64,000 bases of DNA, taken from the NCBI RefSeq assembly GCF_000165425.1, contig NW_001799647.1, forward strand, positions 124,001 through 188,000. The letters are read 5' to 3'. Below, piece by piece: positions 39,547 to 48,859 of the stretch. The notes beneath the pieces are model-generated. The model worked only from the letters and a program-made list of their open reading frames with translations. It was not told where the DNA came from and did not search any database. Position 1 is the first letter of the stretch. Each line of letters starts with the position of its first letter. Source of the stretch: Paramecium tetraurelia. Taxonomy: Eukaryota; Ciliophora; Oligohymenophorea; Peniculida; Parameciidae. A program made the translations under genes and the position numbers.

Positions 39547-41725
39547 TCATATGTATTGTACTGTAGGTTAAGAACTAAAAAAATTTGTATCTATGACATC
39601 CATTGATATTTTTTAGGAATTCCAAATTTGTTTACTTGATTTTTGGTTTCTTGAAGTAATTTTAACATTTGTAAATATTTTATCAAATCTTGATCGAGTG
39701 CTACCGTGATCTGGTATTGGATGAAGAGAATCACATAATACAAATCCTTGTTATGCTTTGATTTTATAAAATTAATCTACACTCTAAGAAACTGATTTGG
39801 AATGAGAACTCATTGGATTACTTAAACATTATTTTAATATTTCCATTTTCTATTAGATTTAAGGACTTGTAATACGGAATTATCTTTTACTCATTGTAAG
39901 AAAAGGTAAGCTATTTTATTAATATTCAGGTTCCTCTTATTGATTATTTTCTTTTGGTATGAGATTACGTTTAATTTAATCAAGTAAATCTTTACTGTCT
40001 TTTTGATGCTTACTAAAACAAGGAGTCTTTCCTCTAATTATAGCTAGAATAAAATACTTAGGTTTTGTTGGTTGAAATTATTCAAACTACTTTTCAACTC
40101 GGATTAATAAACATTTTTGAAAATTATCACCTGCCATTTTCAACATATTGAATTCCTCTTATTTATTTGATACTTTATCGCTTTTGGAATGTTATAAAGC
40201 AATTGATTGATTCTATTCAACCATTTGTTATTTTGTCATTTTAGGATGAATTGAAGATCTTAATATTGGAGAGGATATTTGAGGCGATTTAATTAATTTT
40301 CGTTATTAATTCATTTCGATATCGTTTAGGTATCTTCTCTCAACAATATTGCTTTCTTCTCTCTTATGTAAATTGAGATTTAAAATTTTAGTTTATATGA
40401 TTTCTTCCAATCGTTTGTTATATAGATTAGCATTCTTCTAAGAAAGCAATTATAGAGGGTTAATAAATTCTGGGAATTATCTTTTAACTATCAAATAATT
40501 ATCATGATTTAAGACATATACAATGCATTGGGAAACTGTTTTGACTGTGTAATCTCTTCTTTCATTCTAGAGATAAATATCGGTTTCCCCAATAAAACAG
40601 CCATCAGTCAAATTCGCTAACTAAATATTAGAATTTCAATTTACAGTGACTAGATCAATTTATACAATTTTATCTTTTTTAGGTTCAATTGGTAATTGAT
40701 TCTATTCTTGTTTTAGAAATGGATGAAAATCAATTGTTTTTTATAATTAGATTTCTCCTTCTTTAAGTAAGAAGAACCCATCTGCCAAGTCATTTTATTT
40801 CCAAATCTTATAATTTTGTGGATATTTGTATTATGAAAAATACATAATCAATTTGCTGATTTTAAATTTAGTCATTGTCGGAAACATTCTCAAAAAATAT
40901 TCAATTTTCTCTTACTAAGATTTGATTTATTTTTCAAATATTTTCTATATGATAATAGAGAATATACTTTGAAGTTAGATTTATTAAGAGAGAGTACTTA
41001 TAGATCAGAAATAGTTATAATGCTGGCGGCTCTAGGCTTATCAGTAGTTAATGCCATATCACCAAAGTATTATCCAGAATGTAGTTAAGAGATCTATTAG
41101 AATTTACAAATTCCATAGTTTGTAAAATACATATCGAAATTCCCTGTATTTAGTAAGAGCAATTCAGATTCAATTTGTTTAAGTGGTTTAGTTTACTTTT
41201 TAATTAATTTTTCATAAAAGGAGAATCTTGATTGAGATTCAATTTCTGAAATCGAATTAAGTTGCATTTTTTCTAAATACTATTCAATTTTAGGTTAGAT
41301 CTCTTATTCTTCTGTTTCAATTTGTTGCGGTTATCTTTTAATGTATACTGCAGCTGTTCCTGTGAGAATTATATAGAATTTGTCTCCTTGATCACCTAGA
41401 ATATGTATAAGAGATACCTAAATCAAATACAGCATTTTATTTTTGAAAACTCTCGTATTACAAATTTTATGATATTAACCTTGTGAATTCGAATAGTGTG
41501 CTTGTTTCTGGACACCAAGATTTAAATATTTCTATATTTTGCATTACTCCTGTTATAGAATCCACTTGCATTTCTGTCAAACTTTGATTATCTGTGTACA
41601 TCTAAATGACAGGCTGAGAATATTATTTATTTGATTACTGCATACATCAATTCTTTAGATTAGATTTCATCAACTATATCAATTTGGACTTCTTTAGTAT
41701 TAGCATTAGTTTTCCGTCTACTCAT
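39547..41725 (-). CDS. Protein with two cyclic-nucleotide-binding domains
   Basis: The gene starts MSRRKTNANTKEVQIDIVDE at 41725 and ends at TGA 39547-39549. The first cNMP-binding domain contains LGDQGDKFYIILTGTAAVYI and, after a long insertion, GQYFGDMALTTDKPRAASII, which is the phosphate-binding cassette pattern FGxxALxxxxPRAAS. A second, more divergent domain reads DLADGFFLLKEGEIQL and DGCFIGETDIYLQNERRDYT. Introns of 23 and 24 nt (GTATATTCTC...ATAG and GTAAATTG...TTTAG) restore frame in the middle; others near the N-terminus are needed but unsure. The C-terminal third is basic, Ser/Gln-rich and without domains. It is not a kinase or channel; a cGMP/cAMP-sensing regulatory protein fits best. 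Confidence 0.88.
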
Positions 41726-41849
41726 GTATTATTGATAATAATAAAAATAGTATGGAAAAATAACATTCTGTAATTTTGACGATAGGAGTCCTATTATCAT
41801 TATTGTATGAATTGATCATCTATTTGCTAGGTTTAGTTCAAAATTCGAT
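41726..41849. promoter_or_regulatory. Divergent intergenic region, 124 bp
   Basis: It lies between the starts of the cyclic-nucleotide-binding protein and the small membrane protein and must serve both. It is AT-rich; no motif can be assigned. Confidence 0.4.
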
Positions 41850-42446
41850 ATGAGTGAAGGTACTGTTAATATTAAATTAACAATACAAACAATCTTATGG
41901 GTTTTGATTTCCTTGATTTTGGTTGTTATTTAACACCTATATTCAAGAAGAAAGATTCCTTCGCAGCCTTAATAAGAAATAATTCAAGAACAAATAAAAG
42001 ATATAGATTCGCCCATGCGGCCAAGAAAGGTAGCTGCTTTAATGGACGAACAACTTACATTAAGCAAGGAAGATTCTTGTGCTGGCATGGGCGAATCATT
42101 ATAATTAAAGACCATTCAAAGTTAATAAGATTTTGATGAAATTTCTATAACATCTAGTCTAAGAAAAAGATCAAATTCCATTGCAAGTGAAGGTTTGCAA
42201 AGGAAGGTCTCTTTCGATGAGAGTTAGAACAAAATTCACACTTATAAAAAGAACAATAAGTTGGAAATTAGAAATTTTGAATCTAGCTTTTAGTCAATAA
42301 AATAAGAGAAAAAGAAGAAAAATGAATTAGTAAAATAGAAGAGAAAGGAAGAAAATTTCAAGAAGATGAATATTAATGATATCAACAAGAAAGGAAGAAA
42401 AAGAAAATCTTCTTTGGATGAGAATTTATCCTAATCCTCATATTGA
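41850..42446 (+). CDS. Small single-pass membrane protein with RVxF-like motif, 198 aa
   Basis: An intron-free frame of exactly 199 codons. Residues about 10-28 (LTIQTILWVLISLILVVI) form one membrane anchor close to the N-terminus; the rest is a basic, Ser/Lys-rich, probably cytoplasmic tail. In the tail, LRKRSNSIASEGLQRKVSFD contains RKVSF, which fits the protein phosphatase 1 docking motif (R/K-V-x-F), preceded by basophilic kinase sites (RKRSNS). The end is lysine-rich (KKKNELVKQKRKEENFKKMN). No family was recognised. A phosphatase-targeting role is only an inference from the short motif, which occurs by chance often. Confidence 0.75.
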
Positions 42447-42558
42447 TCTATCATTAAATTATATTAATTAATGTTTCTAGAATTATATTAATTTTTGTTG
42501 CTCAATATTTACTTGAGCATTTTATAATTTAAAAGTAAAATAATTTTTAAAGTAAATA

Positions 42559-44778
42559 ATGTCAAACACGCTCTTTCAAAGAAATGGCAATCCCAATATT
42601 TTTTAAACAAACTAATCGAATACTAATTCATGGACCCTTCCTTAGTACTTTATATACTAATTTTAAGAACATAAAGAAAACGGGATGTCCAGGGTTCATA
42701 TAGAGCCAAGTTTGAACAAATCAAAATCTAAGTGGTCGATGACAAAAATGTATTGTCTACTTCTATTATCCTTCAGCCTTAATATGATAAAATGGTAATA
42801 TTGGCTCATAATTTTAGACTATGGTAATGATTAGATTGGAAGATTATTACTTGATTCGAGCATAATAAATCGAAGATTATCATATAAACACTATTTAAAA
42901 TGCAATTCATTAAAAACGGTTCAATCCAACTTTGATTTCTAAAGTGGCTGGCAAATGTAAATCTAAATTCTACTTTAGCTATTAACGTACCAATTTTTCA
43001 AATATTAAAATCTGGTTCTTCAATATGGGAATCCAATAATTAGTCTCAATAATAACAAAATATTTTTAACACGGCAAGCTCCTCTATGAATGATAATAGA
43101 CAATAAAATAATTTTTTCAGTTCTATGAACAACTAAAATAATTAGTAATAATAATCAAAGTAATATGGAAACATATTTAGCACTGCTCCAATAAATAATA
43201 ACACTACAAACTCAGCCAATATATTTTCTAATTCTAGACAGAATCAACAATAATTAAATATATTCAACTAAAATGTGTTCAATAATACCAACCCTCAATC
43301 TGAATAAAACAACTACTAGACAAAAGATCAGAATGTTCCTTGGATGTAATCATAGTAATAATAATAAATAGGGAATATTTTTTAATAAAACAAACCCTAA
43401 TTATAAATTTAAATTCCTAATCAATAATAATCAAATTCAAATAATGATGCAATTTAATTTAATAATAACTAAACTATTAACTCAATATTTTCTTAACCAT
43501 AATAGTAATAACAGATGAATAATAACTTATAGTCACCATTTTTTTAATAATAACAATAAACTTCATAATAATAATAAATATTTTAATAATAATAATCATA
43601 AATTTAATAATAATAGCAAATGATTCCTATACAAATGCCTTCATAACCATTTCAACCATTCTAAAACATGAATAACATGAATATGTTACCTAACGATTTA
43701 TAAATGATTTAATATTAAAATTAAATGAATCCTATTTAATTTATTAAACAATCAGTAGACATGATAAATACTTTTACAACCACCTTAAACAACTCTATTT
43801 AAGAAATGGAGAAAATGTATAAACTAGAGGAAGAAAAATATTTAGAATAGGAATACCTGATCAATTAACTTGAACAAAAAAAAAGAATAGAAAGGTAAAA
43901 AAAGTAACAAGAAATAAATTTATTGCCTAAAAAGAAAAACGATTCTCACACTCTCTTTAGAATGATGCACTCATCTAATCATTTAAATATTTCTAACAGC
44001 CAAAAAAATTCAAGAATTAGTACGCAATAATCATAAGTTAATTGTGGTAATAATGTCAGCAGAATTTCATCCAAACAAACCAAAACCAAAAAAGAATATA
44101 TTATTGAAATCTATTTTGAAGAAAGTGAAAATTTTATAACATTTAATGAAGAATTTAAGGATATCAAATCCAAAAATGATTTTAAAGAATAAATTCTTCA
44201 AAAAATTGATTAAATGTAGGTTTTTTAAAATGATAAAGCTGCTTATTTTGCAAAAAGCGAGTTAATTATAGATGAAAATAATAATGAAGATAATCATAAA
44301 ACTTTATCATTTCGAATATTTTAAACTTACAGACCTATATTAACAAAAAATGGATATTACACCTTACCTGATATTAGTCAACTAACTATAAATCAATTAA
44401 AAAATGTAGAAGATTTCACCATTTTTAATGAATATGGCTCTTTGAGATGGGATTCTCCAACAAATTTATTATATCTAAATTTGGATAGAATTGTTGATAT
44501 CCAAGATTCAAAAGTGGAAGTATATGATCTAGATCAAATACATGAATACCTCAAGCCAAAAGTGAATAAGAAACTAAATAAATCGTGTTTGATTACTTTA
44601 AAGGTTCCAGTCGAAATAAATTAAGAGAATTATGATAAGGAACATAAATTTCTTTCATAAAAATGCCATGAATAAAATATTGAATTAGTGGAAATAGATC
44701 AAATAAAATAATAATTTGTTGTTAGAGTTAATCACTTCTCCATCTATACATTTGTACATGATGAACATGAAGAATAGC

Positions 44779-44811
<33 letters not shown>

Positions 44812-46298
44812 CAATTTTTAGTGAAAATACTAATAATTAATAATCATAGGAATAAATTGATAGCAAACAGAATCAAGATAAATAGATGAAACAAAATGAA
44901 TTTGATGAGAAACACTATTTGTTCTTACAACAAGTAAATGATATTTGTAGCTTGACAAAGTAATCTACAAATTAAAAAATATCAAAAATAAATCAAACAA
45001 AAAGATAAAATATAGAATTAGTTGAAGATTTTTAGATTTGTGTAAGTAATAAAGAAATGAATGAAATTGACTATCAGATCTGTCATTATTTCATGCAAGA
45101 CTTCGAAATTTAAAAGGAAATTCCTATTCAAAATTAATTTTGTATTAAACTATTGAAATGTTTATTTGCAATAAGAAATGATGATAGATCTTAATTAGCT
45201 CCAAATGAAAAGAAATTACTCGGACAGAGATTGCAGTTTTTTAATATTTTATTTGGTAACTCACTTATACAACTAGAAGATTATATATAATTTTTGGAAT
45301 TATATCCTGAATAATATGATTTTTCAGATTTAGAGTAATATTAAAGGCCTAACTAATTTTAGTAAGGATTAAGCTTAATTTTATATTTAGAATCAATTTA
45401 AGCCTGTAGACTCAAAGACGAAACTGAAAGTTCATATACAGAAAAAGTAATCAAAGAAATAAAAAATAAAAATTTGTTGAATTAAACCTAAAAACAATAA
45501 TAAATGTTATCATTTTTATCTGCTCAACCCTCAAAAGTGATTGATTTACCGTTTTAAGCAGATGATTGGATTAGTATGATTTTAAAATGGAAAGTCTAGC
45601 AGAATGCCGTCCAATATTCATAAGAATGGTGGATAGGGTTGCTAAATTTATTGGAGGAAAATGAAATTTAATCTACTGAATTAGCTTCCCTCATGTATTT
45701 TTTATCTTCAAAATAAAATCGACCTTTAGAGAAGATCTATAATTATTTAAATAAAAACCATAATTAAATGTCAATATTTTTAGAAATACTAATTTATAAC
45801 CAGGATAAAGCAAATGTAAAAATACACAAAAGAATCATCACAAACAAATTAACATTTTTGATAGAGAACAAAGAAAATAGCTATTTTATAGAGTAAATCT
45901 TACAATAATTTCAAGAGTTATTCACCGTAAGTGAATCTGAAAAGTATAAAGAATATATATCGAAAATGCAAAGCACATTGTTTTACTAAGAAAATTTTTT
46001 AATAATAGATGAGGAAATTCGTTTGTAAAAATTGATTGATCAACAAGATTATATAAACTTAGGAATTTACATTTTAAAGTTGAATTCTCCTAGGTTTGAG
46101 AACTATGTTAAATTCCTATTTGAGTATACAATTCCAATTTTAATTATTTTTGGAGAAATCGAATCATTGACGAATATTACTCAGGAATTAAAGGCAAAGT
46201 AAGGCATTTATCTATTCAAAAACAGATATTAACAAATTTTAGACATGAGTGAAGTAATTCATATGATTTATAATTATAGGTGTTTTGTGGAACTTTGA
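42559..46298 (+). CDS. NUP98: Nup98-Nup96 nucleoporin precursor with NIF-type repeats
   Basis: A component of the nuclear pore. Three introns (23, 23 and 22 nt) leave exactly 1,224 codons. Order of parts: a short N-terminus with GNPNIFQTN; a GLEBS-like Rae1-binding segment (STSIILQPQYDKM, then MIRLEDYYLI, the conserved RLEDY); a Gln/Asn-rich repeat region with NIFNTASS, GNIFSTAP, ANIFSNS, LNIFNQ and GNIFQQN; a helical segment; then the autoproteolytic domain (NGYYTLPDISQL, VEDFTIFNEYGSLRWDSP, LYLNLDRIVDIQ) ending in the cleavage motif HFS at 44733-44741. About 500 residues of helical Nup96-like sequence follow. The repeats are NIF-based instead of GLFG. In Tetrahymena, NIFN repeats mark the micronucleus-specific Nup98, so the same is inferred here. 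Confidence 0.93.
44776..44811. repeat. TAA trinucleotide run encoding poly-Gln
   Basis: An uninterrupted run of TAA codons just after the Nup98 cleavage motif gives about 12 glutamines in the ciliate code. It lies at the start of the Nup96-like half and may be length-variable. Confidence 0.9.
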
Positions 46299-46423
46299 TG
46301 TACGAAAGTCGAATCTTTGAAGACTTTAAGTCAAAAAATGTTTTTGAATACTAAATGTTATAAGTGTTAGATGAATATTATTTTACATGATAATGTAGAT
46401 ATAAAATATGATTAAATATAAAA

Positions 46424-48859
46424 TCACATGCATTCATACATGAATATTAGTGCTTTGTATTATTACAATTCCTCCAATCCATTTTGCATTAAATTGATAT
46501 ATTCTTGAGAGTAGGTATTTTATATTTTATTTAATGCTTTAGTCAATTATTCTTAACCAATTTATCTTAAGAGTAATTGATAAAGCAATTCTTTTGGCGT
46601 TTCACAAATAATGTCTTCATCATCTTGAAAGCTGTCTCGTTCTCCATTTTCATTTGATGCATTCGACTTTTATTCTAAACTATCATCATCCTCTCGATCC
46701 ACACTTTCTCTAACTGATTGTTGTATATTAAGTAAATCACCATCTCCTACATTAATTACTTATGAATGTTTAACATCACCGCCTTCAGCAGCTATAACAA
46801 TATCTTCTAATTCTGCTAATAACTGTGATGCTTCATTTTCTTATTCCTCCGAATTCTTAGATGCTTCTTTGATAACTTCTTAGATTTCGGATTATGTGTT
46901 ACTATTTCTTTATCTTTTCATCTCCATTAATTATTTCATCTTCTCTCTATCATCTTTTGTGTCATTTTTTATTTCTCTAATTTCTTATAGGATGAGTTGA
47001 CTTTCCTTTAATTATTATCTGCTTGGTTTAACAGATTCAGTTTTTTAGATTGGATCAGCTTATTATTAACTGGGAGGAGGTTGAGAAATGTATTGTGCAA
47101 CTTATACTCTTTCAGTTTAAGGGGCTTAATATACGCTGTCCCTTTATTCCTTTTAATCTCTAGAAGATGAAGGGTATTATGATTATAATTGTTATTCTAT
47201 CTTTTATTGCAAATCGATTTTTTATTATTATTATTCTGTCTTTTAATTATTATTGATTGGTTCCAATCTAATCGGATCTTTTACTGACATAGGATCAGAT
47301 TATTACTTTTAATATTTTTATTGGATTTATGGTTAAGAGTATGGTTCTCTAGATAACTTGGGTAATTCATACTTATCAGGTTATAAGTATTTTAATTTAT
47401 TTTCTTAAAGCTATTGAAACTTTTCTTCATTTCTTTTGATTTATTATCTGACTTATTCTCTTTATATTTCAAAGGGAGATTTGTCCCTCCCTTCTTTATT
47501 AAATGGAGATTTGCTTAATGGTGATTTATCTTCGTAATATGGTGATTTTTCATTTCTTTATTGATTTAATGGTGAAATATTTGGTCGATTATTAACTTAT
47601 AATGGTTATATTTATTATTGCTATTGTTATTATTATTATTATTATTATTATTTATTGTATTGATATTTTGGATAATTCATATAAGGATTATAATTTTATT
47701 AAGATGGTTTAGATATATAGTCATAATTCTAATTTAAATATATAAGATATTTACTTATGGTAAATGCTATTAATATAATTGTTTCTGTTTTAATAAATTA
47801 TTTTAAGGTTATCCTCTTGCATTAAATGCCAATAAATAATTGCTAGGCTATTATTATTATTGAAATTGTTGCAATGGTTGTTGTTATATTTTGCCAAGGT
47901 TTGGTTATGAACACACACTCCTCAATTCTGTATCATATGGAACTATCAAATTATGATTAACAAAATTTTATTTGTGTAAAATAGTATGGGAAAATTCAAC
48001 ATTTCTAATACTTTCAGAGAGAACACTTCTGATTCTGTTTACTATGATAGGCCTAAATTAATGTTTGAATATACATCTTCAAGACTTCATGTATATTGGG
48101 TCTTCTATTTGGATCAACTTAAAGTAAAGATGAGATTAATTATCTCATATTGGTGGAGAATTTATCAGGGATAGGGGTTGTATTGGCCTCTAACAATTTT
48201 AAGGGCTAATCCATGTAAGGATTCAGCATTAAATGGAGGTTTGAGGAGTACATAGTTCATAAAGGATGATGCCCAAAGACCAAATATCAGTTTTGAATGA
48301 GTAATCTCTACTTTCTATGATTTCAGGGGATAAATAATAGGGAGTTCCAACTATGGTCTTGCATTTTTCTCTTGTGTGATTCAACACTCTGGCAATTCCA
48401 AAATCCCCAAGTTTGATAATACCATCTTGAGTTAGAAATATATTTTAGGTTTTTAAATCTCTATGTATGATTTTTCTATCATGAACATGTTTGATTGCTA
48501 AACATATTTATGTGAACCAATCAAGTATTTATACTTCACTAAAGAGACATGATCCTGTCTATTTGATTTTATTGCTTAAATCCCCACCATCTGCATAATC
48601 CATAACAATGCATAACCTACCTTTTTTTGTTTTGTAGACTTCTCTGAATTTTAACTATGTTAGGATGTCTCAAAGCTTCTAAAATTCTTGCTTCTTTGAT
48701 TGTTTCTCTTCTTTCATCTTCTTTCATTTAATTTAAATCTACTTATTTGATCACACAAAGGGTTCCATCTTGAATGCATTCCACCAAATATGCCTTTCCA
48801 AAAGAACCTTCTCCCAGTAATTTGATTCTTCGATAAATCTCATTTTCATTCTATGCCAT
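46424..48859 (-). CDS. NEK (NIMA-related) protein kinase with frame breaks in the kinase domain
   Basis: The N-terminal kinase domain shows NEK features: [88 protein letters not shown] and LGIILYELC. But the frame shifts by one extra base at three places: AAAA between HPNIVK and FREVY, near the CT-rich run after YELCT, and CCCC in QYNPIPDKFS. Two introns fit: 22 nt (inside EVLKM/PIIVN) and 26 nt. Removing these and the three bases leaves exactly 795 codons. The C-terminal 430 residues are intact, Gln/Pro-rich then helical and acidic. Either a decaying duplicate whose tail is still clean or homopolymer errors in the assembly. NEK kinases act on cilia, basal bodies and mitosis. Confidence 0.8.
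47611..47655. repeat. Trinucleotide run encoding poly-Gln in the NEK tail
   Basis: TTA/TTG triplets on the plus strand are TAA/CAA glutamine codons on the coding strand. Confidence 0.85.

Follow-up and report, generated by a model that had tools for sequence, protein, structure and literature searches.

Here, we describe a gene of Paramecium tetraurelia that encodes a Nup98-Nup96 precursor in which NIF repeats take the place of FG repeats. The gene lies in a window of 64,000 nucleotides (contig C228, positions 124001-188000), and the genome searched comprises 69,072,372 bases in 231 contigs. At the sequence level, the protein combines a GLEBS-like block, NIF repeats, an autoproteolytic domain with the HFS motif, and a conserved C-terminal half, and it has three paralogues of the same repeat type. 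In the available parts of two reports on Tetrahymena (PMC5450191, PMC4432229), four Nup98s are described, the GLFG type being confined to the macronucleus and the NIFN type to the micronucleus, just as an initial annotation of this DNA had stated; Nup96 is made there in one transcription unit with MicNup98B. Coupling of NIFN repeats to Nup96 is thus already known, and the window gene is MicNup98B-like. We consider it probable that the gene encodes a precursor of the MicNup98B type, whose NIF-bearing product acts at micronuclear pores, with a non-NIF paralogue (C206) at macronuclear pores.

The initial annotation had placed the gene correctly, and our five-exon model starts at 42559 (Table 1). 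This start is backed by the ohnologue on contig C158 (MANTLFQRNG in one, MSNTLFQRNG in the other). The gene was said to end at 46298, but that stop results from reading through a 26-nt terminal intron that had been missed, and the true end most likely lies at 46390. We prefer the spliced form because the terminal exon has homologues in the last exons of C2 and C153, two paralogues of the window gene; the C2 match extends to residue 1243 of the window protein. One point in favor of the shorter reading is that the unspliced reading in C158 stops at the matching place. Across the final models of the Nup98 genes, predicted introns are 22-28 nt long and in-frame TAA and TAG encode Gln, features that fit Paramecium; the C2 model includes one intron with an unusual GTT start. 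Another predicted intron in the window gene, 45256-45276, was rejected, as it would cut into conserved sequence (FNILFG onward) that C2 and C153 share.

Table 1. Features of the Nup98-Nup96 precursor gene (window positions) and of the C206 repeat tract
Feature	Position	Strand	Remarks
Nup98-Nup96 precursor gene	42559-46390	+	5 exons, 1245 aa, ciliate code 6 (TAA/TAG = Gln, TGA stop)
Exons	42559-42644, 42668-42794, 42818-42956, 42979-46253, 46280-46390	+	spliced model
Intron 1	42645-42667	+	23 nt; acceptor AAG, least certain; length and place as in C158
Intron 2	42795-42817	+	23 nt; counterparts in C158, C2 and C153 models
Intron 3	42957-42978	+	22 nt; counterparts in C158, C2 and C153 models
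Intron 4	46254-46279	+	26 nt; after splicing, the final exon aligns with its counterparts in C2 and C153
NIFQ unit 1	42595-42606	+	in exon 1
GLEBS-like (Rae1-binding) block	42693-42907	+	aa 38-101; RLEDYYL core; interrupted by intron 2
NIF repeat region	43059-43385	+	5 units
NIFN	43059-43070	+	NIF repeat region
NIFS	43170-43181	+	NIF repeat region
NIFS	43218-43229	+	NIF repeat region
NIFN	43257-43268	+	NIF repeat region
NIFQ	43374-43385	+	NIF repeat region
Autoproteolytic domain (peptidase S59 / Nucleoporin2)	44331-44741	+	aa 569-705
HFS cleavage motif	44733-44741	+	aa 703-705; aligned with HFS of Nup98-Nup96 chain 7f60_C
Nup96-like half	44739-46387	+	541 aa (S705-T1245)
12-nt unit array encoding GLG-rich tract	L008 3229-3382 (G000 C206)		

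The GLEBS-like segment, the autoproteolytic domain and the HFS motif are conserved, in agreement with the initial annotation. The RLEDYYL core of the GLEBS-like block is invariant in the four paralogues, and a profile built from these scores 25.5 against human GLEBS, whereas 200 shuffles reached 14.5 at most (0/200 as good); hhalign aligns the block with human GLEBS over 24 columns (E 8.4e-5). Pfam PF21240 and a PDB sequence search both left the block of the window gene unmatched. The autoproteolytic domain matches PF04096 with an E-value of 2.8e-22 (79.9 bits versus a cut-off of 28.4), as well as Nup98 chains in the PDB, and a cut is expected between F704 and S705.

Six NIF units are present in the window protein, two each of NIFN, NIFS and NIFQ, in the order NIFQ, NIFN, NIFS, NIFS, NIFN, NIFQ. 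GLFG is absent from all 1245 residues, and FG occurs twice in all and never in the 278-aa repeat domain. These counts bear out the repeat units originally reported. An FG-dense repeat domain is a trait of the Nup98 family, and the window gene lacks one. This does not exclude the gene from the family, because NIF stands in for FG as it does in the MicNup98s of Tetrahymena, themselves classed as Nup98s; NIFN-type repeats without GLFG, the combination that marks a MicNup98, are what we find. It might be argued that NIF units are a functionless by-product of an A+T-rich genome and of disordered sequence rich in Asn and Gln. The repeat domain is indeed 18% Asn and 26% Gln, and its DNA contains TAA-type simple repeats. 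Yet its five NIF units compare with a mean of 0.29 in shuffled sequences, none of 20,000 shuffles reached five, and the excess over composition is equally clear in all four NIF-type repeat domains (0/20,000 shuffles each). Moreover, all six units are kept as NIF in the C158 ohnologue despite a dS of about 1.1, Phe is retained at 15 of 17 sites, as compared with 171 of 237 sites for the remaining residues there, and the dN/dS of the repeat domain between the two copies is 0.14. The by-product explanation is therefore very improbable.

We assign the second half to Nup96 from its position in the precursor and from predicted helices. Single-sequence structure predictions were poor (mean pLDDT 42.3 and 37.5); the lower value belongs to the Nup96-like half, which is predicted to be helical at low confidence. 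No significant Pfam or PDB match was obtained for this half, and its identity to the C2 and C153 counterparts is 23 and 24%, respectively. Nonetheless, the proposal that the Nup96 half is kept in a fused precursor with NIF-type repeats is supported. A poly-Gln stretch is encoded at 44779-44811, close behind the cleavage site, and is shorter in C158.

The ohnologue C158 lacks most of what would be the Nup96 half. When window positions 41800-48000 are compared with C158, DNA identity is 81% on one flank of the missing part (41800-44813) and 85% on the other (46228-47997), adjoining frames included. Between these flanks there are 1,414 bases in the window versus 157 in C158. The deletion site, 157 bases at L007 2037-2193 (G000 C158; 4809-4965 on the reverse complement), is followed by a relic terminal exon. 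This relic exon, with its intron, is 47.5% identical to the window protein over 40 residues (aa 1192-1231; E 3.8e-5) and ends early. The comparison indicates that C158 lost the Nup96 solenoid when about 1.2-1.3 kb was deleted; it has likely turned into a solo Nup98 of the NIF type, with a tail released from constraint. It is also possible that the missing part may reflect an assembly fault. The loss in C158 would illustrate one route from a fused Nup98-Nup96 gene to a solo Nup98.

Such decay raises the question of whether the window locus itself is a relaxed pseudogene or is mis-assembled, given that the C158 copy lost its Nup96 half and that what remains behind its cleavage site evolves at a dN/dS of 0.92 (106 codons, gapped alignment). 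But that loss concerns C158; the window gene model is open throughout, and between the two copies dN/dS is 0.05 in the GLEBS-like block and 0.05 in the autoproteolytic domain. We regard a pseudogene or an assembly error at the window locus as hardly credible. Three neighbors on the minus strand were identified by eye: a frame for a Gln-rich protein (46424-47914), which falls within the region of similarity to C158; a protein-kinase-like frame (48223-48859); and a cyclic-nucleotide-binding-like region (39547-41643).

In the genome as a whole, five autoproteolytic domains were found, on C228 (window), C158, C2, C153 and C206. The same five places were returned by the PF04096 profile, by an artificial domain query and by the C-terminal half of C206, and the PF04096 search, which gave five places here, gave none in 14 control genomes. 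The curated proteins are 1245, 818, 1164, 1189 and 586 aa long, respectively, and contain 6, 6, 11, 8 and 0 NIF units. FG occurs 0, 0, 1, 0 and 6 times in their repeat domains, which measure 278, 284, 256, 229 and 265 aa with limits set by hand. All five genes are thus FG-poor, which was unexpected. HFS is present in the four NIF-type genes and absent in C206, and Nup96 halves were found only in three of the four (window, C2 and C153). A tree of eight autoproteolytic domains separates the four NIF types from C206 and three outgroups, with support of 90/90, a value below the threshold of the tool; C206 and C153 form long branches.

The initial annotation had named the absence of any GLFG paralogue as evidence against a micronucleus-type gene. 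Taken to the letter, this is what we see, because strict GLFG is absent from all five Nup98 genes found. The search for a GLFG paralogue nevertheless had a second outcome: a distinct repeat class does exist, in the form of C206, with LFG, GLLG and GLG units. Judged by its sequence, C206 is the kind of second repeat class that the micronucleus-type hypothesis needs. One caveat concerns the reach of the searches. Profiles PF21240 (GLEBS), PF13634 (FG repeats) and PF12110 (Nup96) had no match in the genome or in the 14 control genomes, and are uninformative. An artificial GLFG query had no genome match and missed the LFG units of C206 too; it is silent on the absence of GLFG. Nor were the queries with parts of known genes exhaustive: the second half of the window gene matched only C228 and C153 although the C2 model shows a further copy, the C2 GLEBS query found C2 (two exons), C153 and C158 and missed the window gene, and the C153 NIF region matched only itself, missing the other three NIF genes. 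Because repeat queries missed known genes, the genome may hold a further GLFG-rich Nup98 that lacks a detectable autoproteolytic domain.

C206 is a solo Nup98, without NIF or Nup96. It has four LFG units (three in the repeat region and one inside the autoproteolytic domain), 23 GLG (overlaps counted) and three GLLG. An array with a 12-nt unit (12.8 copies, 81% matches) accounts for a large part of the GLG tract. In an eight-row alignment, the protein end (...FELDQL) is set against ...VSHF, just before the scissile serine of the others; five-row alignments place it differently, HFS is absent in either placement, and PF04096 loses C206 before the last 20 positions of the profile. C206 ends at the place where the others carry HFS; it therefore would not have to be cleaved, and it lacks Nup96. 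By eye, a GLEBS was proposed in C206 as well, but it is not supported: 12/200 and 84/200 shuffles scored as well against human GLEBS. Models with introns inside the GLG tract were rejected, the frame being open through the tract, and a 27-nt intron was dropped, since the unspliced frame is open and gives a better domain fit by eye. Used as a query, the C206 repeat region returned, besides its own locus, ten weak matches with E-values from 5.8e-6 to 0.08; of these, at least four lie within 300 bases of a contig end and are perhaps telomeric.

What might these proteins do? By homology, the precursor would cleave itself after F704. The 704-aa N-terminal product would then dock on the pore scaffold via its autoproteolytic domain and carry Rae1 on its GLEBS, and the 541-aa C-terminal product would join the Y-complex. 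By analogy with Tetrahymena only, the NIF-type product would line micronuclear pores and change which receptors or cargoes pass, and the solo LFG/GLG-type C206, ending where the others are cut, would serve macronuclear pores. Fusion to Nup96 agrees with a micronuclear type, because Tetrahymena Nup96 is made with the micronucleus-specific MicNup98B, according to the parts of the reports at hand (PMC5450191, PMC4432229). Alternatively, the NIF types could be the general Nup98s of both nuclei, with C206 a side paralogue in another role and repeat type no marker of the nucleus. NIF-type genes are four of the five Nup98 genes found and hold the only Nup96 halves found, and C206 shows few FG (6 in its repeat domain), the 12-nt array and no supported GLEBS. 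However, gene number and fusion are no argument for use in both nuclei, because the Tetrahymena NIFN type, as far as the available text goes, is exclusive to the micronucleus even though Nup96 is made with it. We thus find use in both nuclei rather unlikely and retain the MicNup98B-type explanation, against which we count the lack of strict GLFG, the unmatched Nup96 half, the sub-threshold tree and the unsupported GLEBS of C206.

A more speculative possibility is that the whole Paramecium Nup98 family gave up FG-dense repeats: the four NIF genes, probably micronuclear, by turning to NIF; and C206, presumed macronuclear, by swapping most FG for GLG and GLLG, largely via expansion of the 12-nt unit. 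If true, the Nup98 barriers of both kinds of pore would be non-FG and would differ in the receptors that they prefer. This would contrast with a study reporting FG number and density as nearly constant among eukaryotes, with 36 to 58 FG per Nup98 domain among eight table rows and a database median of 43, in the part of that study available (PMC4283134). FG-poor C206 also raises the question of how little FG a Nup98 needs. In the literature examined, some of it available in part, differing pore repeats for germline and somatic nuclei are described for Tetrahymena only. No paper on Paramecium Nup98 appeared among the matches listed in the open-access literature (titles and abstract starts), and an earlier remark is possible. 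The association seen here, of NIF with fused Nup96 (three genes, and one more that lost it) and of non-NIF repeats with a solo Nup98 (one gene), supports, but does not prove, a repeat split that is older than Tetrahymena or that arose twice. Finding the same association in a second ciliate makes it testable whether the split is a general device of nuclear dimorphism.

Comparison with other Nup98s places these features in context. Yeast Nup116 and Nup100 are Nup98s that carry no Nup96 and close with the autoproteolytic domain, as does C206. Nup116 domains also show up as relatives in the PDB comparison; C206 differs from the yeast proteins in its richness in GLG and in its final DQL, which occupies the position of HF. 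Human NUP98-NUP96 shares GLEBS, the autoproteolytic domain and HFS with the window gene. The human Nup96 is longer than the 541-aa second half described here, and the GLEBS-like block of the window gene, in contrast to the human arrangement, sits close to the N-terminus, ahead of most repeats. The repeats of human NUP98 are FG/GLFG, in the sections of the source available (PMC4283134), whereas those of the window gene are NIF. Closest in description is Tetrahymena MicNup98B-Nup96, which likewise has NIFN-type repeats and Nup96 in one transcription unit (PMC5450191, available in part). Beside this likeness in description there are differences: the Paramecium genome shows four NIF-type genes, three with a second half, and in the window gene NIFS and NIFQ each equal NIFN in number. 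Finally, C206 resembles Tetrahymena MacNup98A/B in having LFG, GLLG and GLG units and no NIF; but with no strict GLFG and 6 FG in 265 aa, it differs from TtMacNup98A, for which the available part of the source gives 42 FG in 666 aa and 4.0 GLFG per 100 aa (PMC4283134).
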